64,000 bases of DNA from positions 35,778-99,777 of the forward strand of contig NPFB01000023.1 of the NCBI GenBank assembly GCA_014084085.1, read 5' to 3'. The notes below the pieces were generated by a model. That model did not search any database, was not told the origin of the DNA, and was given only the letters and a program-made list of their open reading frames with translations. Shown here one piece after another: positions 4,511-61,580 of the stretch. A program made the position numbers and the translations under genes. Positions within the stretch are counted from its first letter, which is position 1; the number at the start of each line of letters is the position of its first letter. The stretch is from Hondaea fermentalgiana (Eukaryota; Sar; Bigyra; Thraustochytrida; Thraustochytriidae).

Positions 4511-7500
4511 ATGGCCGAAGGCGAAGACGCCGTGGCGTCCGCGCTGCAGGAGGTCGAGAGAAACGCAGACAGAGTCGAGTACGTTTTCGAGGAGAGATGG
4601 GCGGCCTGCGCGCCTGCCACTGCGGTGCGCGCGTATACTTTTGGTATCGCACACGAGGAACACGAGAAGAGTGATTTTGTTGACTTTGACGGAGACCTTC
4701 ATCAGCCTTCAAAATGCAGGTCTTGGCGACGCAGGTGTCCAGACGCTGGCCCTGGCCTTAAAGAAAACATCAGAGCTCAAGGCGATTTCGTACGTTAAAT
4801 CGTCTCTCTCTATCGCACACACGCACATTCGTTTCGCGATTGAAAAAGTCATGCTCACCACAAAGTATTGACGCGTACAGGCTTGGAGGTAACAACATTG
4901 GCATCCAAGGGACCTTGGCTCTCGCCGAGGCTTTAAAATTGAACGTCTCTTTGCTGGATCTCAAGTAGGTGTCGGACAAAAGAACACGCTTCTTTCTCTC
5001 TTTATTTCTTTAATCGCTCATCTGGAGTGAAGTGAACCTCCAGCTAACTCTTGTCGCTCGCGAGGACACAGTCTCTGGAAAAACAGCCTTGGACCAGAGG
5101 GCGCAAAGGCCCTAGCCGACGCACTCATACACAACACCTCATTACAGAGTCTCGAGTACGTGTGTCTTTTCTGACAGCATTACGGCGTGGAACACTTGTT
5201 TATACTGACCTCGAATTGATAGTCTGCGCCTCAATAACATCGGTGATAGAGGTGCTGTAGCGCTGTCCAGGGCGCTCGGCCAACCTTCGAGTTCTCTTCA
5301 AGTGCTCACGTAAGTTACGCCACCCTTTTCACAGGAATTCACTCTTGAACACGGCTAACGCAACGATGATTGTCGTGTGCCATTGTGTGCTGGAAATAGC
5401 CTCAACAGTAATAACCTTGGCGACGAGGGAACAAAGGCCTTAGCAGCAGCGCTGAAGCAGAACACTTCTCTGCAGGCTCTCAAGTATGTTGCATTTTACA
5501 AACACGCGGAAAAGAAAAATAGTATTCAGCCTCTGACACGCTCTCATTTTCCTGTAATCTCAATCGAAAACGAAAAGTCTCGGCGACAATAACGTTGGCG
5601 ATGAGGGAGCGAGCGCGCTAGCAGATTTCATTGAAGAGAGCTCCAATCTACACGAGGTTGAGTACGTTATGCTGAATTTTGTCTGCATGCAACAACAACA
5701 ACAACCACCACAACAACGAATTGCTCACTTCGACTTTTTTTTTTTGCCACACTCTGAAATACGAATTCTGTAGCCTCCAGTACAACAAAATTGGAGATGT
5801 AGGAGCACAAGCTCTGTCCAAGGCGCTTGGGCAAAATGTCTCTCTTCAAGTCCTCTAGTAAGTCTACTATCCGTACTCTGAAGAGTTGCATCCAGACATC
5901 GCGACTGACGGGAAAGAGCTGGAACTGGACCTTGCGCTTTTCTACCGGAATGATAACGCTCTGCATCTGCATGCAGTCTCCGGTACAACAATATCAAGGA
6001 TCAAGGCCTTCTTTCTCGAATTCATGACGCTCTTAAGCGCAACGAAGTGGCATCTCCACCGCGTGCACCCGTCTCAGACCTAGATAAAGAAGGCCTCGCT
6101 GTGGATCCCGCCGCATGGCTCGAAGCGGTAAGCGCTGCCATTACACAGGGTGATGCGCACGCGTGGGGACGCGCCAAGCTAATGGTGGTTGGGCGGGGTG
6201 CAGCTGGCAAGACTTCGACGGTGCGCTCCCTTCTTGGACAGGCGTCACGTGTCGAGCATCTCTCGACCGAAGTGGCTGACATTCATCGCACGCGCGCGCA
6301 AGACTGGCACCCTCTCGAATCAGATCACGGCGAATTTGATGCGCAGGTCCGGTATGCAGCGACACAACGTCTCGTGGCTGCAGCACGCAAGGGACAAGAG
6401 CTCTCCGCGTCGACGTCGGGCCAAAGTACCGGAGATGAGGCGACTGACCGTCCCTTGTCGCCATCTGGTTCCCCCAAGAGTGTCGGCGCCTCGGAATCGC
6501 CAGAGCCGCTGCTTGCACCCAAGGACGTAGCGCGTCGATTTTCCGTCAGCGCAAAAGAGCAAACACTATTATTGCAGGACTCGGCAGCAGACCGTAACGC
6601 GAGCTTTACAATATGGGACTATGGTGGCCAGCAGGTCTTTTACGCGCTTCATCACATTTTTCTCACGGACAAGGGTCTCTACCTGGTTGTCTTTGACATG
6701 CGCGAGATCATTGGCAAGGAGCAATTCAAAGATGGTCTTTCTCCCGACGAGTACGCCAAGCTGGCGACGCAAGACGAAGCCATTGAGTTCTTGCGCTTTT
6801 GGCTCAACAGCATCAAGCTCCATGCCCCTCGTTCCCCGGTTCTCTTGGTGGGGACGCACAAAGACGAGGTGCACGACTTGCATGCGGTGCAAAGTGTTCT
6901 CGGTAATCGCAAGGTCATCAACATACACGGCACCTTGGTCAGACCTCCGGGGAGCTCCTTTTTTGCCATCAACAATCGAAGCCCAGATCCGCATCGTGCC
7001 GCAGCGTTGCGTGCTGCCATTGCCAAAACGGCCGCGGCGCAGAGTTACGTACATGAACAAGTCCCCTTGGCCTGGCTGAAAATCCACGAAGACTTGCTCC
7101 AAAGTGATACGCCTTTTGTCACCTTTGAGAATGTTGTCGCGCGTGGTGCCGCATATGGACAGTCTCGCGCAGCCATTGAGAAGATGCTCGCTTACTTTCA
7201 CGGCCTCGGCGTGGTTGTACATCTTGGAGGTTCCGAGGTGCTGAAACGTGTGGTGGTAATTGACCCACAATGGCTTCTGGACAAGCTCGCTCGCGTCATT
7301 GCTGATGACATGCATGCCCAAAGTCTTTATCGCGATGAAGGGCTCTTAGCTGCTGAGTTGATGCCAGCCTTTGAGCGAATGCATGACCATGCGATTGCGT
7401 CGCGGCGGCTTCTCGAATGGCTCTGGGAAGACCAAGAAGTCGATTATCTCCTTGGTTTCATGGATGCCAACATGTTGCTGTGCCCTTGGCACTTTGATGA

Positions 7501-8668
7501 CGAAGACGAAGACAAAGAAGATGACGATGATGATGGCAAGAAGACGGACGCATACCTGATTTCTGGATTACTATCGGACGCTGTGGAAGACGTCAAAACG
7601 GAGCATTTTGAGCCAGGGCTCTCGTGCGAACTTGATTTTTCCGGCTTCTTTTTGCCCAATGGAGTCTTTCACCGACTGATTGCGCAATGCGCCAAGTACG
7701 CGGTCCGGCCAGAGGTAACGGGCGACGATGAACCCATGAAGCCAGCACTGGGACGCCGGCAGGCCATGCTGTCTTTTGGCATCAACGACTTTTTGCTCAC
7801 GGTAGATGGAGATGTCGTGCGGATCTGCGTCGACAAGAACGCTGAACGGCCTGCCATGGTCATCAAAGTTCTGGTCTCCATGCTTCGCGAACAGGCAGAG
7901 ACGGTCTTTGGTGGTCTTCCATGGGATTTGTTGCTCGTGAGCCCCACGACTCAGGTCGCGGTGGCGTATGCTAAGATCGTTGAGAAGCGCGAGGAAGGTC
8001 GCTTGGACGCACGTCTGCGCGGCCCGAATCGCAAAGTTGCCGCCGTGAGCGAGTTCGAGCCCTTTTTCACGGAGAAGATTGGCGCGCTCGACACCGATGA
8101 AGATGGCCCGTCGGTCCCTGCATTCGCGGACGTTCCTGCGCTGGCTCGTGGCGAAGACACGCACGTGTTTTTGAGTCACATCCAGTCAACCGGGGGCGAT
8201 TTGGCCGACATGTTGCGACTCAAGCTGGAAAATCGCGGTCTGCGAGTCTGGTTTGACCAGGCGCATCGCGCTGTGCTCAATCAGGAGGCCATGCTCGACG
8301 GCGTCCGTCGCGCGCGCACCTATGTGCTGATTTTGACGGCCGGGGTCTTTGCCAGCGACGCTGTCAAGGCGGAGCTTGAGTGCGCTTGTCGTTCCAACAA
8401 GCGCATCGTTGTGGTCCACGAGCCGGATACGCACCGCTCGAGCTACGTAAACTTTGGCGAATACATTGATGCCACTCCAAGCTTTTGCCCAGGTCTATTC
8501 AACGAGGAGGAGTCGCTGCCGGTGCGCCGCAAGTGGTATACGAGGAGGACGCCTTTTTCGATGAGTTTCTCCGCCGCTGTTTTCGATAATGAGCTCGCAG
8601 ACGAGAAGGAAAAGTACTATAGTATTTTGAAAAAGTATTTTCTGGCCTGTAGTACTACGTGTGGATGA
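4511..8668 (+). CDS. LRR-Roc-COR-TIR protein (ROCO-family GTPase with a C-terminal TIR-like domain)
   Basis: Deduced exons: 4511-4578, 4706-4789, 4881-4964, 5072-5155, 5223-5309, 5400-5483, 5578-5661, 5774-5857 and 5977-8668. They total 3351 nt, 1116 aa, and all introns are phase 2. Exons 2-8 each encode one 28-residue ribonuclease-inhibitor-type LRR (84 nt, one of 87), and exon 9 starts with a further one. A Roc GTPase follows: P-loop GRGAAGKTS at about 292-300, G3 WDYGGQ at about 433, and G4 THKD at about 513. The P-loop to G3 spacing is long because of a Ser/Pro-rich insert. A COR-type region starts near 585 (VPLAWLKIHEDLL; VVVIDPQWLLDKLARVI). It contains an acidic insert, DDEDEDKEDDDDDGKK. 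The TIR-like domain starts near 949 (THVFLSHIQSTGGDLADML, then GLRVWFDQ). The Glu of KAELECA (about 1020) sits where SARM1-type NADases have their catalytic Glu. The protein is probably cytosolic. A recognition or cell-death role is inference. Confidence 0.87.
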
Positions 8669-12528: not shown

Positions 12529-14376
12529 TCACCAGCCACGCCTCCGCTGCTTGCCCCGGGAAAGGCCTCGCATCTTATCGCGATCGCGCCGAGCGATGAA
12601 AGATTGAGCCTTGAGACCCTTGGCCCCACGCGAAGCCGACAGCGAGGCGAGCTTGAAGCTTTTGCTCTTCTTGTGCAGCACCTTTTTCGGTCCCCGCGCG
12701 ACAGAGAGAGAAGGCGAAATCCGTTGTTTGGCACCATGGATCTCGAGCGCATCGTAGTGAATACCTCCGCAGTAGAGCACACTTATGCAACGTTTTGGTT
12801 CACGCGGCGCGAGAAAGCAGGAAATGCGCTTGAAGCCACCACGCGAACGCTCATACACGTCCACCTGGATGCCGAAAAGTCGCGAAAACGCCGCCATCTC
12901 AATGCCGCCTCCCCACGCGTAGCTCTGCATTCGTCTGCAGTATGTCTCTACAGAACATTGTGCGTCCCACCGGACCCATTCATTGACGGGTGTATCAGCA
13001 ATCTTTACGTTTGCATTGTTGCGCACCCAGCGTGCGAGGGCCTGGCGCAACGCGTGAGTTGACGATGGGCCTTCGCCACGAAGCCCGCGGAACATGGAGT
13101 GGTACAAGCAACTCCCGTCACCAGGTTGTGGAAACACGCGTGCGTCTTTGGCTGCGACAAACATATTTCCGCCCGCACCACCAAGGCCTGCAATAGCCTT
13201 GCGTCGCTGTGCGTCGGGGTGTTTCTCGCGTGATTTCTTGTAGTGCGGGCAACGCTGCGTCTCGTGCGCGCCGTCGCACTTGTCGCACACTAGCGGCCCC
13301 TCTGACTGTTTCGCGTTGGCCTTCGTTTCTTCTTTCTTTTTCTTCTTTACCGTCTTGGCCTTTTTCTCGGCCTTCTTCTTCTTTACGTGGTTTGTCTCTT
13401 CCTCCTCGTCCGACGAAATCGACGACGTAGAAGAATGGGAGGATGAAGACGCAATCTTGGCCTTCGCGCCGCCTTCGCTGTCGTTGCTATCCACGCTTGA
13501 TGAACGCGCCCGTTTCCGTTTCTTCCCGTCCTTTTTCAAGGTTGGCTCAGCAGCAGTCTTCTCTGCCTTTTTGTTCTTGGCGACCTCCTTTTCGAGATGC
13601 TTGACGAGAAATTCATATCTGTTTTCGAATTTCCGGAGAATGGACGAAGCAAGTTTCGGCGTGAAATAGTCAAGTTCACAGAGTAATTCCTTGGCTCGGG
13701 AGAGGAGCTCCGCCTTGTCACTACTGACTTTGGTCTCTTTTGCATCTGTTGCTGCAGAATCTGCAGACTTGACGGCGGGTCCAAAGGACGTTGCCTTGGA
13801 CTTTGTTCGAGGCTCTGCGGTCTGGTTTGTTCCACTTTGGGCCAGCTTCTTGAGTTTTGCGAGCGACAGACCTTCCACTTGGGTCTTGCAACTCGGTCCG
13901 TAGACCTGGACGATTTTCTTCAAGTATTTTTCGCGCAAAGCTTTCGCAGGGTCGTCCGCCGGACTTACCGTTGCTTCCTCCTTTTCACGAGGCAGCATCT
14001 TGGCGGCGCCAGTCTCCGTTGCCGAAAGCGAAGAGTCTGAGTCAAAGTCCTGTGTGTGACTCACCGAAATTGGCGAGCCCTCGGACTCCACGGGAGACTT
14101 GCCGGCAGACAAGCTCTTTTTGGCGCTCATTCTGTGCTCTGCTGCGTCCTCAGTTCGCCGAAGACCCTTCTTCGTCTCTCCATGCGCCTCGCGCGTCGGC
14201 TTGCCCGTCATCTCCGAGCTCTTCGCCGTGGTTGGCGCCTCGCCGGCCTCCACCTGGGCAGCCTGCACGCAAGGTTTGCATTTCCGAGCCTCCCGCTTGC
14301 GCAGCTGCGACTTGCTAAAGCTCGACTTCGCGCAGTCCACGGCGCACCTCGCGCACCTCAGCTCCTCCGCGCTCAT
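12529..14376 (-). CDS. OTU-domain cysteine protease with N-terminal Cys4 motif and zinc-knuckle-like motif
   Basis: It is 615 aa from the first ATG of its frame (MSAEELRCARCAVDCAKSSF). The N-terminus has paired CxxC motifs (CARC ... CKPC) around SKSQLRKREARKC, resembling Stc1-type zinc modules. The middle is charged, Ser/Lys-rich and probably disordered. A knuckle-like CDKCDGAHETQRCPHY follows. The C-terminal third is an OTU deubiquitinase-type domain: the nucleophile context GDGSCLYHSM, a WGGGIEMAAFS block and the histidine context GGIHYDALEIHG are all present, so the Cys/His pair appears intact. The expected activity is hydrolysis of ubiquitin or ubiquitin-like conjugates (family knowledge). 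Substrate and linkage preference are unknown. After the OTU domain about 60 basic residues remain. Confidence 0.85.
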   Translation of the reverse strand: MSAEELRCARCAVDCAKSSFSKSQLRKREARKCKPCVQAAQVEAGEAPTTAKSSEMTGKPTREAHGETKKGLRRTEDAAEHRMSAKKSLSAGKSPVESEGSPISVSHTQDFDSDSSLSATETGAAKMLPREKEEATVSPADDPAKALREKYLKKIVQVYGPSCKTQVEGLSLAKLKKLAQSGTNQTAEPRTKSKATSFGPAVKSADSAATDAKETKVSSDKAELLSRAKELLCELDYFTPKLASSILRKFENRYEFLVKHLEKEVAKNKKAEKTAAEPTLKKDGKKRKRARSSSVDSNDSEGGAKAKIASSSSHSSTSSISSDEEEETNHVKKKKAEKKAKTVKKKKKEETKANAKQSEGPLVCDKCDGAHETQRCPHYKKSREKHPDAQRRKAIAGLGGAGGNMFVAAKDARVFPQPGDGSCLYHSMFRGLRGEGPSSTHALRQALARWVRNNANVKIADTPVNEWVRWDAQCSVETYCRRMQSYAWGGGIEMAAFSRLFGIQVDVYERSRGGFKRISCFLAPREPKRCISVLYCGGIHYDALEIHGAKQRISPSLSVARGPKKVLHKKSKSFKLASLSASRGAKGLKAQSFIARRDRDKMRGLSRGKQRRRGW

Positions 14377-15375
14377 CCTCCCTGCGCCTGCGCGCGCGGC
14401 CGCGCGTCTGCGTCCGCCGCGGTCCTGGCCAGCCGTCGGCAGCCTCGGCGCCGTGAGCGCCACCCGATGATGGCCACCTCGCGCGGCCTTCGGGGAAGAC
14501 CCCCACCGACCGACCGCCGCCGAGGACCCGACCGGCCGAAGGCTTCTGCGCCGAGGCGCGGCCGCCGCTGCCGGGCGCGCTCGTCCGCGCAGCGCTCGCG
14601 AGCTGGCGAGCTGCCTCGCCGCGCGCGTCTGGCTCCGGGTACGTGGTATGTAGTACGTGGTGCGGCCACTCGCTCGCCCGCCTCTCCAGAGCACAGCCGG
14701 ACCCGTACCGGACCCGGGGGGAGAGAAAGCGGCGGTGTAGGGTGGATGCCGCCGGGTCGCGTGCGCGGGACCGGCCGTCGTGGCGTTTCGCGAGATGCGG
14801 TGCAGAGTAGTGCACCGGGTTGGATGAGGAGCCGCAGCCGGTGGCGATGAGGAGTGGCTTTCGAGAATGAGGGACGTGGCATGCGGTGCCCGGCAGGTTT
14901 CTCTTTGCGCGGGGAAGACGGTCTTCGCGGCGTGTCTGGACGAAGAAGAAGAAGAAGGGGAGGAGAAGAGGTGACAGAGTTGTGCAGGATGTCCTCGCAA
15001 GCCTGTTCCGACAACAAACGGATGAGAAAAGAGAGAAGATGCGAAGACGAATCCAAACGAATCGAGACGAGAGCGGAGAGGAAAATCGAGCGTTTGATCC
15101 TGCTAGATGAGCGGGAGATTTGCAGCGTGCAATACGACGAAGAAAAACAACACGGAAAGAAAGAAAGAAAGAAATCGAAAGGCAACAATTTTCGAGGAGA
15201 GATGAGCCATCGTCAACGTTCACACCACATCAAAGATCGCGCGCGCAGAAGAAAAAGAGAGTCATGCTGCCCCAAAACATAGCAGGAACCAGCCCAACGA
15301 GTAGAAAGTTGACAGAAGGAAGTCACCTTGCAGGCGGACAATCGGAGAAAACAAAAAGACACAGCAGACCATGAC
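14377..15375. other. Intergenic region between two minus-strand genes
   Basis: It holds the 5' region of the OTU gene and the 3' region of the basic coiled-coil gene. The half near the OTU gene is very GC-rich. A partly palindromic GTACGTGG/TAGTACGTGG repeat lies at about 14639-14660. Long overlapping ORFs on both strands are compositionally biased, and no domain was recognised in them. Confidence 0.55.
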
Positions 15376-28982: not shown

Positions 28983-31412
28983 TCACGCGCCGCGACCATC
29001 CGCCATGGCTTGCCCGAGGAGCATCTCGAGGATTCTGTCCTCGTCATCATCGTCGCTCGCAGACGCGCTTGCGGCATCTGCATCGTCCAAAAGTCCAAGA
29101 ATACTTGCGCTCATTGCAGCTGATTCCACGGGTCTCCTTTCTTCTTGCGTTCCCTCAGGTCTCGATGGGCGAGCGTTCTCGGTGAGACTCGTGGCCCCAT
29201 TTTCCACTTCACTTTCTGACGCCACCTGTGGTCGCTTAATCGGAGCCGCAAGACCCAAGCCAGGCAAGAGGCCTCTCCGCTCCGCATCCCGCAGCGTCCC
29301 AAGCAAGGCATTGCGCTCCCTGCGCAAGTTCTGGACCTCGGTGTCCTTTCGACGTAACCGGTCTTCGAGAAAGGCGACCCGGCTCGCCTCTTCGCGTGCA
29401 GCCTCGTCCACAAGACGAGCGAGCTCCCGCTCCTGCTGTTTAACACAAACACGGGCCGATGAAAGCTCAGCCTCCAATGCCGCTCGCGTATCCTCGAGTT
29501 CCTTGTGCTGCTCAGAGGATTTTGCTTCCATATCCTCAATCGTGGCTCGCAGATTCTTTTCTGCTTCGCTCTGGGTTCGGGCGAGAGTTTGCTCCAACTC
29601 GACAATCCGACACTCAAGGCTGTCGACCCGTGCAGACTTCTCTGCCAAATGATTGCGGGCAACGCTAAGCTTTTCACTTAGATCTGCCATCTTTTCAAAT
29701 GCGCGAGCTATCTCCTTTTCTGCAGCTGTCCGTGCAGCGCGCTCCCTCCTCCAGGCGTCCTTCGCGTCAGCCACCCGAAGCGCCAGTTCCCGAAGTTTCA
29801 AAGGCAAGAGCTGCAAGCGATCCTCGTATCGCTTTACACGGTTCAGTACGGCGCCCAGCGTTACTGTATCGCCATCGACCTTTGCCGCCACAGCAAGCAT
29901 TGTTTCTTTTGCGCGAAAGACTTCTGTCATTCTTCGTTGCGAAGTCATGGTCGCTTCGTGACAGCTGCGCTCCAGGCCGCGTGCCTGCGCCACGCTCGTG
30001 TCTCGCTCCCGACGCAAACGTTCGCATGTCTGTTGAGAAGCTTCGAGCTCTTTGCGAAGTTCTTCCAGCTCCTGCGTGTGCCTTGTCCCCGTGCGTTTGG
30101 CCTCGAGACGCGCGGCTCGATCTTGGATGAGGAGGGCAAACACTTTTTCGCGCCAGGCCGCTACCAGCGTGTCGGCGCTTGCGTCTTCGCCTCGCTCTCG
30201 TGAGTTGACAATTGCTCGCTCTTGCGCCACGAGCAAGCCTTCGAGGGCTTCGAGGCGCGACTCTTCCCGGAATCCTTTGCGCTGGGCCTGCAATGTGAGC
30301 GTCGCATTCTCCTTGCGCATTTGCTTCAATGCGCCCTCGCTCTCGCGTAAACGCTCCTTCCAATCAGACAATTCGCACTGAGACTCATGCAGTTTTGCTT
30401 CGAGCTCGTTGGCGCGATGCTTTGCTGCCTCTGCCGAGGCTGTGGCTTCTGCAACTGCGTTCTGTAGCCGCAAAGTCTCAAGCTGGAAAGTGTCTTGCGT
30501 TTGGACCGAGGCATTGTGATGATCAACTGTCCACGTCTGCGCAGAAGCCCGTGCCTCACGAGGCGAGGTACCTACGGCAATTTCTGTCGTGGGCCTTTTG
30601 GAGGCACTCACGATCACAGAGGTCTCGTTGCCCAAAGACGCTTGAGATTCCTCGTCAGGGCCAACAACGTCCTGCACATATGACTGCGCCCGACGTTGCC
30701 CCGGGCGCTGGACCTCTTGTTGCGCGCGGACAGCCTCAAGTTGTTGCAATACTTGCGTCACAAGCGCTCGTTCCTCGGCCATGGCGGCACGTTCGCGCTC
30801 CATTGCACGTCTGGCTTCTTGAATGTGCTCATTCTCTTCTCGCAGCTGTCTTGACGTTGCAGAGCGAGCAGGCCGTGGTGGCGGTACTAGGCGCATGGGC
30901 GAATCGGTTTGTGCGCCAAAGTCACGTCCAAATGAGGCTTGAACGCTGACTTCTTCCCGTGCAACGGAATGCGCTGCAACTCTCGCTGGTGCGTCTCTTG
31001 CAATAGGGACGCCATCAAGTTGCCAAAGCCACGGAAAGCGCGCAGCCACCTTGGCACGATAGTCTGGGTGTCGCGAAAGTGGACAACCAGCTAATGACAC
31101 TGACTCGAGAGAGGTTTTCCAGGCGTCAAGGCCATGGAGCGCTTCGACATCTGCAATCGCGTTGAAACTTAGATCGACTTTGCGTAACGAGGGGTTTATC
31201 GGAAACTGGCCTCCGCTGACAACTTGGATGTGGTTTCGTGCAAGGTTAAGCGTTTCTAATGCGCGAAGGCATTCCACACTGCGCACATCAAAACTGCCAA
31301 TCTGGTTGCCGGCGAGGTCCAGAATGATCAAGGTGGGCAGCAGCTCAAGGTTTTCCACCACGGCGATTTCTGTTTTTAGATGCGAAAGTACAGCAGAGTA
31401 AATGTAGTTCGT
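28983..31412 (-). CDS. LRR and coiled-coil protein (5' exon unresolved), cytoskeletal/centrosomal type
   Basis: The main exon has no usable ATG at its 5' end: the apparent start codon at 31361 is GTG. Reading upstream in frame gives TNYIYSAVLSHLKTEIAVVENLELL, so the exon probably starts after an acceptor AG at about 31412 or 31415 and an upstream exon supplies the start. An ATG-containing frame at 31704-31560 (MMQTHSSRSAF...GLGWLDLSEH) is a candidate, but I could not find a phase-compatible junction. The first 120 residues are SDS22-like LRRs with an LRR cap (FPWLWQLDGVPI). The remaining 650 are almost continuous coiled coil (for example LHESQCELSDWKERLRESEG), ending DEDRILEMLLGQAMADGRGA. This architecture is shared by centrosomal and basal-body LRR-coiled-coil proteins. 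A specific orthologue is not claimed. Confidence 0.75.
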   Translation of the reverse strand, partial: TNYIYSAVLSHLKTEIAVVENLELLPTLIILDLAGNQIGSFDVRSVECLRALETLNLARNHIQVVSGGQFPINPSLRKVDLSFNAIADVEALHGLDAWKTSLESVSLAGCPLSRHPDYRAKVAARFPWLWQLDGVPIARDAPARVAAHSVAREEVSVQASFGRDFGAQTDSPMRLVPPPRPARSATSRQLREENEHIQEARRAMERERAAMAEERALVTQVLQQLEAVRAQQEVQRPGQRRAQSYVQDVVGPDEESQASLGNETSVIVSASKRPTTEIAVGTSPREARASAQTWTVDHHNASVQTQDTFQLETLRLQNAVAEATASAEAAKHRANELEAKLHESQCELSDWKERLRESEGALKQMRKENATLTLQAQRKGFREESRLEALEGLLVAQERAIVNSRERGEDASADTLVAAWREKVFALLIQDRAARLEAKRTGTRHTQELEELRKELEASQQTCERLRRERDTSVAQARGLERSCHEATMTSQRRMTEVFRAKETMLAVAAKVDGDTVTLGAVLNRVKRYEDRLQLLPLKLRELALRVADAKDAWRRERAARTAAEKEIARAFEKMADLSEKLSVARNHLAEKSARVDSLECRIVELEQTLARTQSEAEKNLRATIEDMEAKSSEQHKELEDTRAALEAELSSARVCVKQQERELARLVDEAAREEASRVAFLEDRLRRKDTEVQNLRRERNALLGTLRDAERRGLLPGLGLAAPIKRPQVASESEVENGATSLTENARPSRPEGTQEERRPVESAAMSASILGLLDDADAASASASDDDDEDRILEMLLGQAMADGRGA

Positions 31413-56785: not shown

Positions 56786-57419
56786 CTGTTTTTGAACAAA
56801 GTTCTTTTCGTGTTTAAGTATGCACAGATGTTTTGTTTATTCTTTCAGTTGTGCATCTTCCATTCTTTTTCTTTTTTTTGGGGGGGGGGGGAGAGATGAG
56901 GATGTCGCGCCCGGAAGAGCACTATGTTTCATAAACAACAAAAGTTTTTTGGCTGGTGCCCAATCTATTATTTTCTCCCATCGTCGATGTCATCTTGATA
57001 CCGCAATCAAGAGTCCTCTTTCCTCTTCAACCCCCCCCCCCCCCCTCTTTCCTGTCCCTTCCTCTCTCCATTTTTTCGACAAGACCTTCCTCCAAGCTCG
57101 AGTGTTTTTGACTCACAGTCACTTCGTGACTTGTATTCATTCATGAAACTCGCTCGCCATGCCAAACCTCTCGACCTCGAATTTGAGCCATTGGCAACTA
57201 TACACTCACTGTCACATCGCTATAATAATAAGGCGGCTTTGGAGTTTTGTAACGGCAACATGGTGGGGACTCTGCGATTGAGTCCCTTTACGCAATCGTT
57301 TGTTTACTTTGGCTTCGACGTGGACTTGCAGACCTCGTCAGCACACGAAGAGCTGCGCAGTGTGGCGCAGCGCTACCCCGCTCCTTGAAGCAAGCCAAGC
57401 GTGTTGGTCTCGAAAGAAG
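56786..57419. other. Intergenic region with homopolymer G and C tracts
   Basis: T8 runs directly into about G12 (56872-56891), and a C15 run lies at 57031-57045. The rest is the promoter and 5' UTR of the class C GPCR gene. The upstream apparent start of that frame at 57300 is TTG, and no separate gene is supported. Confidence 0.6.
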
Positions 57420-60400
57420 ATGGGGGCCGTCCTAAGGGCGATTGGCGCGCTCCTGCTCCTGTCTGCCACTACGCTCAAGCGCGGGTTCGCAGTGACGACC
57501 ACCAAGGTTCGCGTGGGCGTCTTTGTCGAGGTCACAGGCCCGAGCGACGATGACCAGAGCTGGAAGTCAGTCTTGGCGGCAGCCGCGCTTGCCACCTCGC
57601 ACTTCAACGAGCGAGATGACAGCATTATTCAAGACTTTGTCGATGTAGGAAATTGTGCGCCAGACCTCGACACGGTTCTCATCCGCGTGACAAACTGCGC
57701 GCAAGGAGCGCTCGAGGACTACATCTTGCAAAATGGTTTGCACATTGTTGTAGGAGGAGACGTTTGCACCGATGACACAGATGCCGATGCCGCTTTGGCC
57801 TCGGCCGCCGATGCTGTCGGACTTCCGTTCCTTGCCCTCGATAGCCTTCGGCCTCGAGACGTGAGCGAGGGCACAAGTGAAAGAGATGACGAAGCGCTCA
57901 GCATGACTGCGCCCACGCACGCCTCGGCAAACGCAATTGTTGACATGTACGCAAGACTCGGCCATACAAACATTGTCTTTCTCTACGAAGACGGCCAAGC
58001 AGGGCGCGCCTGGCGAGAAAGTCTCGAGCGCGTAACCTTGCGTTCGCCAACGTTAAAGATTCTTTCCCTTAGGATCGACCCTGACAACACGGAAACCATT
58101 GGGGTGGCTCTGAACGCCGCTCAACGAAGCGGGCTACGATCCATCTTCGCCGCGGTCGGAGCCGACACAGTTTCGGAACTCCTGCAAGGCGCCAACCAGC
58201 AAGATATGCTTGGGCCAAAGTGGGTCTGGGTGTTTACCGACATGGTTAGCCTTGAGACATTACAGCTCTCAGGACAGCCGCTCCAAGGTTCACTCTTTGT
58301 GGAAAGAGGCGGTCTGGAAAACAGCATCCATCAGGATCGAAGAGAATGGGAGCTTTTGGCGCAGTGGTTTGACAACAGCTTTCCAGAGGCGATCGAAGCA
58401 CTCGTCAATGCTTCCGGATACGAGGTCGACCTGGCTCTGGGCGATGCTGCAAGCCTTGCATTTGACGCAATCAGCGCCATTGGTCTCAGTCTATGCGCGG
58501 GAGGAGGCGAACCGGCGATGAGCGGGTTCGCCCAGACATCTTTTCACGGTACCTCGGGACTTGTCGTATTTGATGAATATGGTCGTCGCCAAGAGGCTTC
58601 GATGACGCTCTTTCTTCGAAACATTGCCGAGGGCGACAATTTAGGGATGCGCCAAATCTACCTCGGTGAATGGGTTGGTGAAACCTGGGTGTTTTCGCAA
58701 AACGCAACGTTTGCAAATGGACTGCAGACGCCTCCGCGCGACGGGACCAGCATTTTGACTTCCTCTTCTCCCAATGCATCGGGCTACTATCTTGGCAATC
58801 TTCAAGAGCCCTCGTGCTGGGTCACCTATAGTGATCCTCAGCATGCAAAGTACAATCAAGGCAAGGCGGTCTTGCTGCCGTCGTGTCCACAGGGGCTACA
58901 GATGACGACAACTGTGGACGGTCCATCGACGGACAAGGCGGGTCCATCCATTCGCGCAAACGTTCGTCTCGAGGTTGGCTCAGACGCATGTCCGAACGAG
59001 ATTGGCAACTGCGAAGCGGCTGTCATTGCTCCAGAGACCGCCTTTGCGAGTCAACTTCCGACGGTACAGGTGCGGGCCTGCAAACAGTCGCAGCGTCACT
59101 ACTGTTCTCCTGTGCTGACGGAGGATGGAAGCACGTTGAGCGATCCTCGAAGCGATGCTGTTGCTTTCACGCTTCTCAGTGCAAGCTCTTCCTACACTGC
59201 GCAAATCGACTATACTTTGGAGGGCGACGATGCTGTTGTCCTTGTGCACAGCCAAATAGTGACCCGCGACGGTGCTCGCTACAGCATTGCGAGCGTCATC
59301 AGCCAACCTGGCGGCACCTCCTCTTCCCCGTCTCTTCCCGACGCGCCGCGAGAGGATTCCCACGCGCAGAGCGACAGGGTTATATGTAAATCATTCGGAA
59401 AAACTCAGGACTGCCCAGAAGGCCTTGCACTCGAAGTCGAATTCGCAGCGACACCAAAGAAGGATGACGGCGCTACTCGAGTCAAAGACAGCCCAACGAG
59501 TCTTTTGGCAGGTGTGCCTCGCGTAGTGCGTTTGCGGGTCGATCTTGGAAGCGTGACAGCGTCCGAGTGGACTTCGCTCGCCACCGCTGATCTCGCGTAT
59601 TGCGGATCCGGAGCCTCTTCGTGCACGTCAGAAAATATTGTGGAACTTGTCACCATGCACGCTGTCTCCTCTCCTTCTCCTTCTTCTGCGTCAGACGATA
59701 TATTTTACGAGGGTTCGCTCTTCATTCCAACGTCTGGTGACTTCATGGTCATGGTATCAGCATCTCTTGCCGACGCGGATGACGCGCAGCGCATTACAGC
59801 ATCTCGAACGATCGCCGTACATGTTATGGCATCCGAGGGAATCCATCTGGCTACTTCGCAGACGGTCTTATCCTCAAAAATTTCGCAGCACGGCTACCAC
59901 GTCGGAAACTTCGACGAAAGTATCTGTTGGAAAGCAGCCGTGCCCTCGGGCATGTCGTACTCAGTGCTTGAAACTTTAAAGCTCGTGAGTGAGCAGGAGC
60001 CAATATGCCCCCGCGGTATCCGTCTTGAATATACAAGACGACCAAAGAGGCTAACGAGACGATCAGAACTTGGCGCTTTTCCTGTCAGCGCCGAGGTAGA
60101 GCTTGGTTCGCCAGAATTTCCTGTGGCTCTTGGTGACCATGGAGAGTATCCTCTCTCCTACATTTACGGCGCAGACATTCCGCACGTGAACTTCCATTTT
60201 TGCGATCGAGCCATCCGCTTTTGCACGCCCCTCCTGCGAGGCCTCGGAACTGATGTATACTCGACCACTGCTCCGGTTCAGTTTAGCCGCGAAGACAAGA
60301 CCTCGCCACTTCGATTCGCCTTTGAAAGCGAAGCTCTCAACCTCACCGAGGGAATGTACACGGTACTTGTGCACGCTCGCTTCTACTCCAACGAAGGCGC

Positions 60401-61580
60401 ATTACAATGGGACGTTGCCACAGCCTTTCCCCTCGAGGTGGGCGACACAGCCACAGATGACCTCTCGCTCATCCCACGTACACTCTTCGTTGTCGGGCTT
60501 GGAGCTGTTGGTCTGCTTTTGCTTGTCACAGGTAGCCTGGCAGTTTGGGTTGTCCGAAATCGAGCGCATATCGTACTGCAAATTGCACAAGGCCGCTTCT
60601 TGGGCGTTTTTCTTGCAGGAATTTTCTTTATTGGGATCAACGTGGCTCTGCATGGAATTGAAGACTCTCCAGCGGACCGCGCGGACGCATCGGGGGGCAA
60701 CGCGTTGGCGGACGTAGGCTGCATGGCCAACATCGTGACATATTGCCTTGGCTTTGTGTTGAGCTTTAGTCCGCTCCTCGCCAAACTTCGAAAGACGCTT
60801 GCGGATTATCAAGGGCAGCCATTGCGCCGTATCACTGTAACAAAACGGCAGCTCGTGCGAACGTGCGGATGCTTTTTGGGCCTCGACGCGGTCATTTGCT
60901 TCATTTGGATGCTCCACGACCCGCCTGTATTCTCGCGCAAAGACGTTGTCACAGACGCAATGGGCTTTCCGGTCAAGAGCTCGGGACAGTGTACATCGGC
61001 GCACTTTACGACATACATTTTGCTGTTGCTCGCCATCCATGGCTCGACAGCTACAATTGGGGCATTGTACGCATTCCGAACAATCAACTATAAGACCGCC
61101 TTTAGCGAGGCGCGTTATGTGAGTATCGCACTACTTGCGGCCATTGTACCCTATGCATTCCTGGTGCCGATTCTCTTTCTGGTGGAAAGCTCTTCTTCGG
61201 CCCGTTTTGCTTTGGTCTCTGTCTTTGCGCTTGTCAGCAGCTTCACAGCACTCTTTATCGTATTTTTCCCCAAGCTCGTCTTTGTGCAGGGATCCAAGAC
61301 CAACGCTTTGCGCCGATCTCTGGAAATTGACGAAACGTACGAGGCCAAGGTGAGCCCCGTCAATTCGCCGGCTGGATCTCCACATCATCCTTTTCCGGCC
61401 AAACGGCAGGCAGCCCAACCTCAATCGGAACAGCGGCCCAAGACGTTGGGTTTTGCAGTGACTCCCGTGGATGGGCTCTCCACACTGTCAATTCGGCCCA
61501 TTGCCTCGGACTGGATTGACCCCGACTCCGACGATGATGACCAGGCAAATCTTGAACCCATTTACAAGTCCGCGATCTAG
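57420..61580 (+). CDS. GABA-B-like class C GPCR with extra cysteine modules in the ectodomain
   Basis: It is 1386 aa. MGAVLRAIGALLLLSA is the first ATG and starts a signal peptide. Residues about 30-400 form a Venus-flytrap ligand-binding domain (VRVGVFVEVTGPSDDDQSW, then NIVFLYEDGQAGRAWRESLE). Three related segments follow, each centred on a C...CP-x-G-[LI]-x-[LM] motif: SGYYLGNLQEPSCW...CPQGLQM near 453, VICKSFGKTQDCPEGLALEV near 652, and YHVGNFDESICW...CPRGIRLEY near 823. The 7TM region runs from about 1019 to 1290. It begins PRTLFVVGLGAVGLLLLVTG and includes LLAKLRKTLADYQ, SEARYVSIALLAAIVPYAFL and IVFFPKLVFVQG, all fitting class C receptors of GABA-B type. The cytosolic tail is about 100 residues and acidic at its end. 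The ligand is unknown. It is convergent with the glycosyltransferase, only 75 bp between coding ends. Confidence 0.88.
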   Translation: MGAVLRAIGALLLLSATTLKRGFAVTTTKVRVGVFVEVTGPSDDDQSWKSVLAAAALATSHFNERDDSIIQDFVDVGNCAPDLDTVLIRVTNCAQGALEDYILQNGLHIVVGGDVCTDDTDADAALASAADAVGLPFLALDSLRPRDVSEGTSERDDEALSMTAPTHASANAIVDMYARLGHTNIVFLYEDGQAGRAWRESLERVTLRSPTLKILSLRIDPDNTETIGVALNAAQRSGLRSIFAAVGADTVSELLQGANQQDMLGPKWVWVFTDMVSLETLQLSGQPLQGSLFVERGGLENSIHQDRREWELLAQWFDNSFPEAIEALVNASGYEVDLALGDAASLAFDAISAIGLSLCAGGGEPAMSGFAQTSFHGTSGLVVFDEYGRRQEASMTLFLRNIAEGDNLGMRQIYLGEWVGETWVFSQNATFANGLQTPPRDGTSILTSSSPNASGYYLGNLQEPSCWVTYSDPQHAKYNQGKAVLLPSCPQGLQMTTTVDGPSTDKAGPSIRANVRLEVGSDACPNEIGNCEAAVIAPETAFASQLPTVQVRACKQSQRHYCSPVLTEDGSTLSDPRSDAVAFTLLSASSSYTAQIDYTLEGDDAVVLVHSQIVTRDGARYSIASVISQPGGTSSSPSLPDAPREDSHAQSDRVICKSFGKTQDCPEGLALEVEFAATPKKDDGATRVKDSPTSLLAGVPRVVRLRVDLGSVTASEWTSLATADLAYCGSGASSCTSENIVELVTMHAVSSPSPSSASDDIFYEGSLFIPTSGDFMVMVSASLADADDAQRITASRTIAVHVMASEGIHLATSQTVLSSKISQHGYHVGNFDESICWKAAVPSGMSYSVLETLKLVSEQEPICPRGIRLEYTRRPKRLTRRSELGAFPVSAEVELGSPEFPVALGDHGEYPLSYIYGADIPHVNFHFCDRAIRFCTPLLRGLGTDVYSTTAPVQFSREDKTSPLRFAFESEALNLTEGMYTVLVHARFYSNEGALQWDVATAFPLEVGDTATDDLSLIPRTLFVVGLGAVGLLLLVTGSLAVWVVRNRAHIVLQIAQGRFLGVFLAGIFFIGINVALHGIEDSPADRADASGGNALADVGCMANIVTYCLGFVLSFSPLLAKLRKTLADYQGQPLRRITVTKRQLVRTCGCFLGLDAVICFIWMLHDPPVFSRKDVVTDAMGFPVKSSGQCTSAHFTTYILLLLAIHGSTATIGALYAFRTINYKTAFSEARYVSIALLAAIVPYAFLVPILFLVESSSSARFALVSVFALVSSFTALFIVFFPKLVFVQGSKTNALRRSLEIDETYEAKVSPVNSPAGSPHHPFPAKRQAAQPQSEQRPKTLGFAVTPVDGLSTLSIRPIASDWIDPDSDDDDQANLEPIYKSAI

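Follow-up and report, generated by a model that had tools for sequence, protein, structure and literature searches.

An LRR-Roc-COR-TIR gene in Hondaea fermentalgiana and the expanded ROCO-TIR family to which it belongs

Gene model and domains of the LRR-Roc-COR-TIR gene

We analyzed a 64,000-nucleotide stretch of DNA (the window) from the thraustochytrid Hondaea fermentalgiana, which belongs to the contig labelled C136 of a 36.0-Mb genome. At 4511-8668 on the forward strand lies a gene encoding leucine-rich repeats (LRRs), a Roc GTPase domain, a COR region, and a C-terminal TIR domain. In the spliced gene model, a prediction from genomic DNA alone, the gene has nine exons with GT-AG at every border and eight introns, all of phase 2, and its product is 1,116 amino acids (aa) long. 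Exon 1 (4511-4578) contains the start codon and an N-terminal leader. Exons 2-8 each encode one LRR in phase 2 and are 84 bp long (4706-4789, 4881-4964, 5072-5155, 5400-5483, 5578-5661, and 5774-5857), except for exon 5 with 87 bp (5223-5309); a stricter LRR-exon pattern also found exons 3-8 but missed exon 2. The last LRR, Roc, COR, and TIR share the single uninterrupted exon 9 (5977-8668; 2,692 bp, 873-codon open frame), which ends with the stop codon. An earlier note, made from the letters of this DNA only, had described all four parts as joined in one frame. This is true of Roc, COR, and TIR, but seven LRRs lie in exons of their own and are joined to the rest only by splicing.

The domain order proposed in that note was borne out by Pfam, which matched LRR_6 (E 7e-33), Roc (5e-15), COR-A (2e-11), and TIR_2 (1.8e-8) in this order in the spliced model, all above their cut-offs. 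COR-A (residues 583-683; 7064-7366) stands right behind Roc with 44.6 bits against a cut-off of 35.3, and TIR_2 (residues 944-1076; 8147-8545) scored 35.4 bits in the full protein and 39.5 bits on the isolated domain, against a cut-off of 28. The three Roc motifs that had been named are present as well: the P-loop GRGAAGKTS starting at residue 292 (GRGAAGKT, residues 292-299, at 6191-6214), DYGGQ at residues 434-438 (6617-6631), and THKD at residues 513-516 (6854-6865). The best PDB matches for the Roc region were the bacterial LRR protein 4wnr and the Roc of LRRK2. Pfam matched no COR-B in the window protein (E 0.01), no kinase domain behind COR, and neither NB-ARC nor NACHT. We conclude that the window gene is an LRR-Roc-COR-TIR gene. 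Its database annotation (P0001, Hondaea fermentalgiana) omits LRR exons and has a different C-terminal end, and the label given there, 'LRR serine/threonine-protein kinase 1', was rejected because the gene has no kinase domain. That the TIR is a chance open reading frame or an annotation fusion was also rejected, since it shares an exon with Roc-COR and the same order recurs at 30 genomic places.

ROCO-TIR genes and their sensors in the Hondaea genome

Six-frame profile searches of the Hondaea genome, whose counts are lower bounds, gave at least 73 matches to TIR_2, 93 to Roc, and 33 to COR-A. Many of the Roc-matching frames are about 200 codons long and resemble ordinary small GTPases. COR-A is closely tied to TIR: 30 of its 33 matches are followed, 553-1,372 bp downstream and in the same orientation, by a TIR, and the unpaired three are locus L031 (TIR 24.6 bits, below the cut-off), one match that reaches unread bases, and one weak partial match. 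The last-exon frames of loci L010, L013, and L015 contain Roc, COR-A, and TIR_2 in this order according to Pfam. L028 carries LRR-Roc-COR-TIR within a single frame, with COR-A below the cut-off. One database model without a TIR, P0051, corresponds to the genomic frame of L015, which has the TIR. The same six-frame search found no NB-ARC in the genome (E 0.001) and eight NACHT matches, none near any TIR match. For 43 of the 73 TIR_2 matches, there was no COR-A within 5 kb upstream; these include ANK-TIR proteins, fragments, and loci with unread bases. L011, L017, and L026 encode proteins in which ankyrin repeats are combined with a C-terminal TIR retaining (Y/F)CxxE, and they may represent a second TIR-based repertoire.

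The sensor slot in front of Roc varies across the family and is filled by LRRs, WD40 repeats, or, once, an actin-like part. Using a pattern derived from the window exons, applied to both strands and preferring matches of 84 or 87 bp where matches overlapped, we scanned 21 sequences, seven of which contained a total of 59 LRR exons that are 84 or 87 bp long and have phase-2 borders; the antisense strand of the 21 contained none of this length and phase. Another 12 exons of 84/87 bp are present in L029 and two in L031. With at least 16 such exons in front of Roc, L015 has the longest array of the scanned sequences. In L033, L034, and L035, WD40 repeats (Pfam) share a frame with the Roc P-loop, and the Roc and TIR matches report equal frame lengths of 1273, 1233, and 1307, respectively; P0008 likewise consists of WD40, Roc, COR-A, and TIR_2. 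The actin-like case is a 1,757-codon frame at L030:657-5927 on the reverse strand, where actin matches (E 5e-84, four stretches) are followed by Roc, COR-A, and a TIR with a TIR_2 score of 21.3, below the cut-off.

Relatives were collected by protein searches in which the best 7,996 candidates by common words were scored, giving at least 45 proteins, and in a second round 8,000, giving at least 64. Among the matches listed, most named relatives were from Hondaea, and the others were from Mucochytrium quahogii (P0025), Aplanochytrium stocchinoi (P0043, no TIR listed), and, at a greater distance, Salpingoeca rosetta, Patiria miniata, and Prorocentrum cordatum. P0068 is an LRR-Roc-COR protein whose TIR falls slightly under the cut-off. 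When the TIR region was used by itself as the query, four proteins were recovered, all from the ROCO-TIR family.

In a quick tree built from 59 Roc-COR rows, the Hondaea sequences formed three main groups, with P0013 standing apart. One group includes the window gene, a second also carries LRRs, and the third has 20 members, among which eight database models are labelled WD40. The TIR tree (37 rows) separated two types with a support of 100/99. The second LRR group has the TIR type seen in ANK-TIR proteins, and its Roc-COR is placed among carriers of the other type. Uniting all carriers of the first TIR type on the Roc-COR tree was rejected (approximately unbiased test, p 0.006; quick tree of 34 rows), in a comparison for which the group was named after the trees had been seen and which contains long branches. 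Models without a TIR (P0040, P0041, P0044, and P0055) branch between TIR carriers on the Roc-COR tree. Because TIR type and Roc-COR descent disagree, the TIR may have been exchanged or gained again after COR; the trees are compatible with exchange, with loss, and with separate gain. By each of these routes a TIR comes to stand behind COR, an argument for the TIR being the output that is wanted. No prokaryotic relative of the fusion was found in a contig scan, a weak test that used only two short peptide patterns.

Divergence of the LRR arrays and conservation of the TIR Glu

Locus L010 contains 8.8 tandem copies of a 259-bp unit of one exon and one intron, with 86% matches, and we compared four of them, between which the introns diverge by 2-5%. 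Variable sites were concentrated in the ligand-facing codons (9 of 12 bases) compared with the rest of the exon (6/72; Fisher p 2.4e-6) and the intron (12/175; p 8.4e-8), and the rest of the exon did not differ from the intron (p 0.79). The facing set consists of 12 bases in four codons; these positions were assigned by reference to the LRR consensus, and one of the codons is split by the intron. The Fisher p values err on the optimistic side, as the codon set was fixed after the entropies had been seen and the units are not independent; a permutation over position labels, in which the split codon was dropped and one extra facing position was added, gave p 0.005. In the pair of codons that follows the conserved Leu, the ratio of nonsynonymous to synonymous differences (pN/pS) was 2.07, compared with 0.39 elsewhere. 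We conclude that the ligand-facing LRR codons evolve fast in paralogue L010.

The switch and the TIR behave in the opposite way. Over ten pairs drawn from the paralogues L010, L012, L013, L014, and L016, with the window gene left out, dN/dS ranged from 0.15 to 0.29 in Roc-COR and from 0.06 to 0.27 in the TIR, showing that both are under purifying selection in these five paralogues. The maxima in the same genes were 0.99 in the stretch before Roc and 0.76 in the C-terminal tail.

Catalytic TIRs carry a Glu in a WxxxE or CxxE context. By sequence, the window TIR is closest to the solved structures of tir-1 and SARM1 (E about 1e-4). A nine-sequence TIR profile searched against PDB gave 34 matches, of which the first 11 were AbTIR (7uwg, 8g83), tir-1, and SARM1 (E 3e-8 to 3e-7); entry 7uwg carries the name 'Molecular chaperone Tir'. 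The TIR suspected in the earlier note is therefore recovered by profile, and its best PDB matches are NAD+ hydrolases. The candidate catalytic residue, Glu 1019 (8372-8374) in KAELECA, is opposite the Glu of DWVHKE in two tir-1 alignments and opposite the Glu of DWTNYE in the AbTIR alignments, both of which we take to be catalytic residues. In an alignment of 61 TIR rows, comprising ROCO TIRs and other TIRs with some genes present twice, Glu accounts for 58 of the 60 non-gap residues in this column. At 80% non-redundancy it is kept in 36 of 38 TIRs, and the column ties for the 5th-8th best-kept of 162. The exceptions among the 61 rows are P0005, which is locus L031 and has Gln, and P0034, an annotated model whose TIR start is identical to that of L010, where the Glu is present. 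The third residue before the Glu is Val in 40 and Cys in 19 of 60 aligned residues. L031 (617-3097, forward strand; identical to P0005), with its weak TIR score, is a possible natural catalytic-dead copy.

A putative NLR-like receptor family built on a ROCO GTPase

These results suggest, with somewhat better than even confidence on our part, that the window gene belongs to an expanded family of NLR-like proteins in a thraustochytrid, in which a ROCO GTPase is the core of a sensor-switch-effector plan and the TIR most likely cleaves NAD+. The anatomy is plain from the data: the domains, their order, the family size, the exon modularity, and the conservation of the Glu. In the proposed mechanism, an interchangeable N-terminal sensor (RI-type LRRs in the window protein, WD40 or actin-like in others) would bind a ligand, presumably derived from a pathogen. 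Binding would be relayed to Roc-COR, whose GTP/GDP state would set the oligomeric state, and the change in Roc-COR would free or cluster the C-terminal TIR, which it would thereby gate. The clustered TIR would most likely cleave NAD+ or a related dinucleotide, leading to a signal or to the death of the infected cell, an output analogous to those of TIR-NLRs and bacterial TIR systems. The earlier note had likened the gene to NLR immune sensors, and this likeness gains from the approximately 30-member family, the fast LRR faces in one paralogue, and the constraint on switch and TIR; its interpretation as a whole is partly supported. A broader version, in which a unicellular stramenopile has a full NLR-like repertoire with ROCO instead of STAND, an NAD+-cleaving C-terminal TIR, and swappable sensors including an actin-like bait, is put forward more tentatively, since we give it a little less than an even chance. 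The idea that the actin-like part of L030 is a bait fused to a receptor is speculation; if so, it would resemble the integrated decoys of plant NLRs.

Several observations weigh against the NLR-like interpretation and lend themselves to other explanations. In the window copy, the frame is shifted after RRKWY (base 8539), so that the C-terminal tail (8540-8668) is out of the family frame and the sequence for the last TIR helix is found in a different frame (8542-8586). The tail read from 8542 in this other frame outscored the in-frame tail against all 31 rows compared, among which some genes are represented twice, once from each of two sources; rows that lacked the RRxxx motif or had short tails had been left out. 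With its last TIR helix interrupted in this way, the window copy may be impaired, and it could be a decaying pseudogene, which would be compatible with an NLR-like role of the other members. The loss of the Glu in L031, a paralogue of the window's own group, fits such decay and also counts against catalysis in general. We nevertheless consider decay rather unlikely: all borders are GT-AG, the 873-codon frame is open, every Roc motif is kept, and an error of one base in the assembly would give the same appearance. Glu 1019 is upstream of the break. The register of this Glu is itself disputed by the sole SARM1 alignment, ungapped there, in which it is not opposite the WVHKE Glu, and our confidence is slightly lowered because of this failure; the match to the SARM1-type Glu claimed in the earlier note is supported by the tir-1 alignments but not by the SARM1 one. 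Moreover, Trp four residues before the Glu occurs in 0 of 60 rows (Ala 33, Asn 13, Tyr 5), and the window protein has Ala at -4 and Val at -3, that is, neither Trp nor Cys. Such a context would suit a TIR that serves as a non-enzymatic homotypic scaffold, like MyD88-type adaptors, with the ROCO switch recruiting other TIR proteins; the many genomic TIRs that have no COR-A upstream, including the ANK-TIR proteins, could be its partners. Animal scaffold TIRs are not known to carry the catalytic Glu, and its retention in nearly all non-redundant TIRs, together with NAD+ hydrolases as the closest solved structures, makes a scaffold somewhat less probable still than decay. A database model of Hondaea, P0031, has Roc-COR but ends in SAM instead of TIR, and may be a wrong gene model.

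The immune role is also open to challenge, as function and activity of the ROCO-TIR proteins are predicted here from sequence. The family might consist of developmental or stress-signalling GTPases that arose by ordinary duplication, with LRR change as drift; in brown algae, a response to other stresses is reported for many ROCO genes (PMC11378527). The diversification in L010 concerns one gene and four units. Outside it, pN/pS of the two facing codons is raised but mostly not above 1: 0.84 in the window LRRs (0.40 elsewhere in them), 1.18 in L013, 1.32 in L014, 0.99 in L016, 0.90 in L015, and 0.78 in L012, compared with 0.40-0.51 outside the facing codons of these arrays. Synonymous differences in the arrays are high. 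Drift would not, however, give the L010 facing codons approximately 10 times the variable-site share of the adjoining introns. The interchangeable sensors, and a like signal in the brown-algal LRR-ROCO candidate receptors in passages of PMC11378527, also argue for receptors, and we regard a non-immune family as the least probable of these explanations, and improbable in itself.

Plant TIR-NB-ARC-LRR proteins and animal NLRs combine a sensor, an NTPase switch, and an effector, and their LRR faces diversify. The Hondaea proteins differ from them in having a Roc-COR GTPase instead of a STAND ATPase, a C-terminal TIR, and no NB-ARC match in the genome. The window protein may thus work like an NLR, but by its domains it is not one, having no STAND NTPase. 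It has the Glu in common with tir-1/SARM1 and AbTIR, with Ala instead of Trp before it; the switch of tir-1/SARM1 is ARM-SAM instead of Roc-COR. The Roc-COR core is common to LRRK1/LRRK2 and bacterial Roco proteins, and the window gene has no kinase. In Salpingoeca rosetta, PTSG_08933 (P0060) has LRR_6/ANK, Roc, COR, and TIR in the same order as in Hondaea, but it lies on a very distant Roc-COR branch and has extra ankyrin repeats.

Brown-algal LRR-ROCO proteins were reportedly proposed as candidate immune receptors by Zambounis and colleagues in 2012. Passages of a later study describe them as LRR-Roc-COR proteins whose LRR exons are 72 bp long and in phase 2, with four sites of the concave face under positive selection (Teng et al., 2024; PMC11378527). 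The Hondaea family resembles the one described there in its stramenopile host, one LRR per symmetrical phase-2 exon, family expansion, and diversification of the concave face, here in L010. It differs in its 84/87-bp RI-type exons, the TIR after COR, the varied sensors, and the unicellular host, compared with 72-bp exons and LRR-ROC-COR as the sole architecture in brown algae. The same passages report a TPR-ROCO-TIR protein among the five ROCOs of the red alga Chondrus crispus, which combines ROCO and TIR as in Hondaea but with TPR as the sensor. The LRR-Roc-COR-TIR plan is not unique, given the Salpingoeca rosetta protein and the red-algal TPR-ROCO-TIR; LRR-ROCO in brown algae is also already published. 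In a 2020 eLife article (PMC7159879), passages containing the terms ROC-COR, ROCO, and LRRK are confined to the references. Among the top-listed results of a search of the open-licence literature, we found no publication on the Hondaea ROCO-TIR family.

Large diversifying receptor families have been linked to multicellular hosts in passages of PMC11378527, where unicellular SAR relatives have four or fewer ROCOs and Hondaea is not mentioned. The approximately 30 ROCO-TIR genes of this single-celled relative run counter to that link and suggest that receptor diversity is separable from multicellularity. RNA and DNA viruses of thraustochytrids are known (PMC4512727). The family also makes testable the question of whether a Roc-COR GTPase, the core of LRRK2, can gate a TIR enzyme.

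It should be mentioned that two further TIR proteins and three other genes were seen. At L009:1797-3779 (reverse strand), a TIR is part of a 661-aa frame that has no Pfam match (E 0.001) in its N-terminal part, and P0017 has a second, weak TIR-like stretch at residues 185-255 in addition to its C-terminal TIR. Elsewhere in the window, an 822-aa frame at 12529-14997 (reverse strand) carries an OTU-like cysteine protease domain, a frame at 28983-31358 (reverse strand) has a run of LRRs at its N-terminus with neither Roc nor TIR matched, and 57300-61577 (forward strand) contains a class C G-protein-coupled receptor-like gene with ANF_receptor and 7tm_3.

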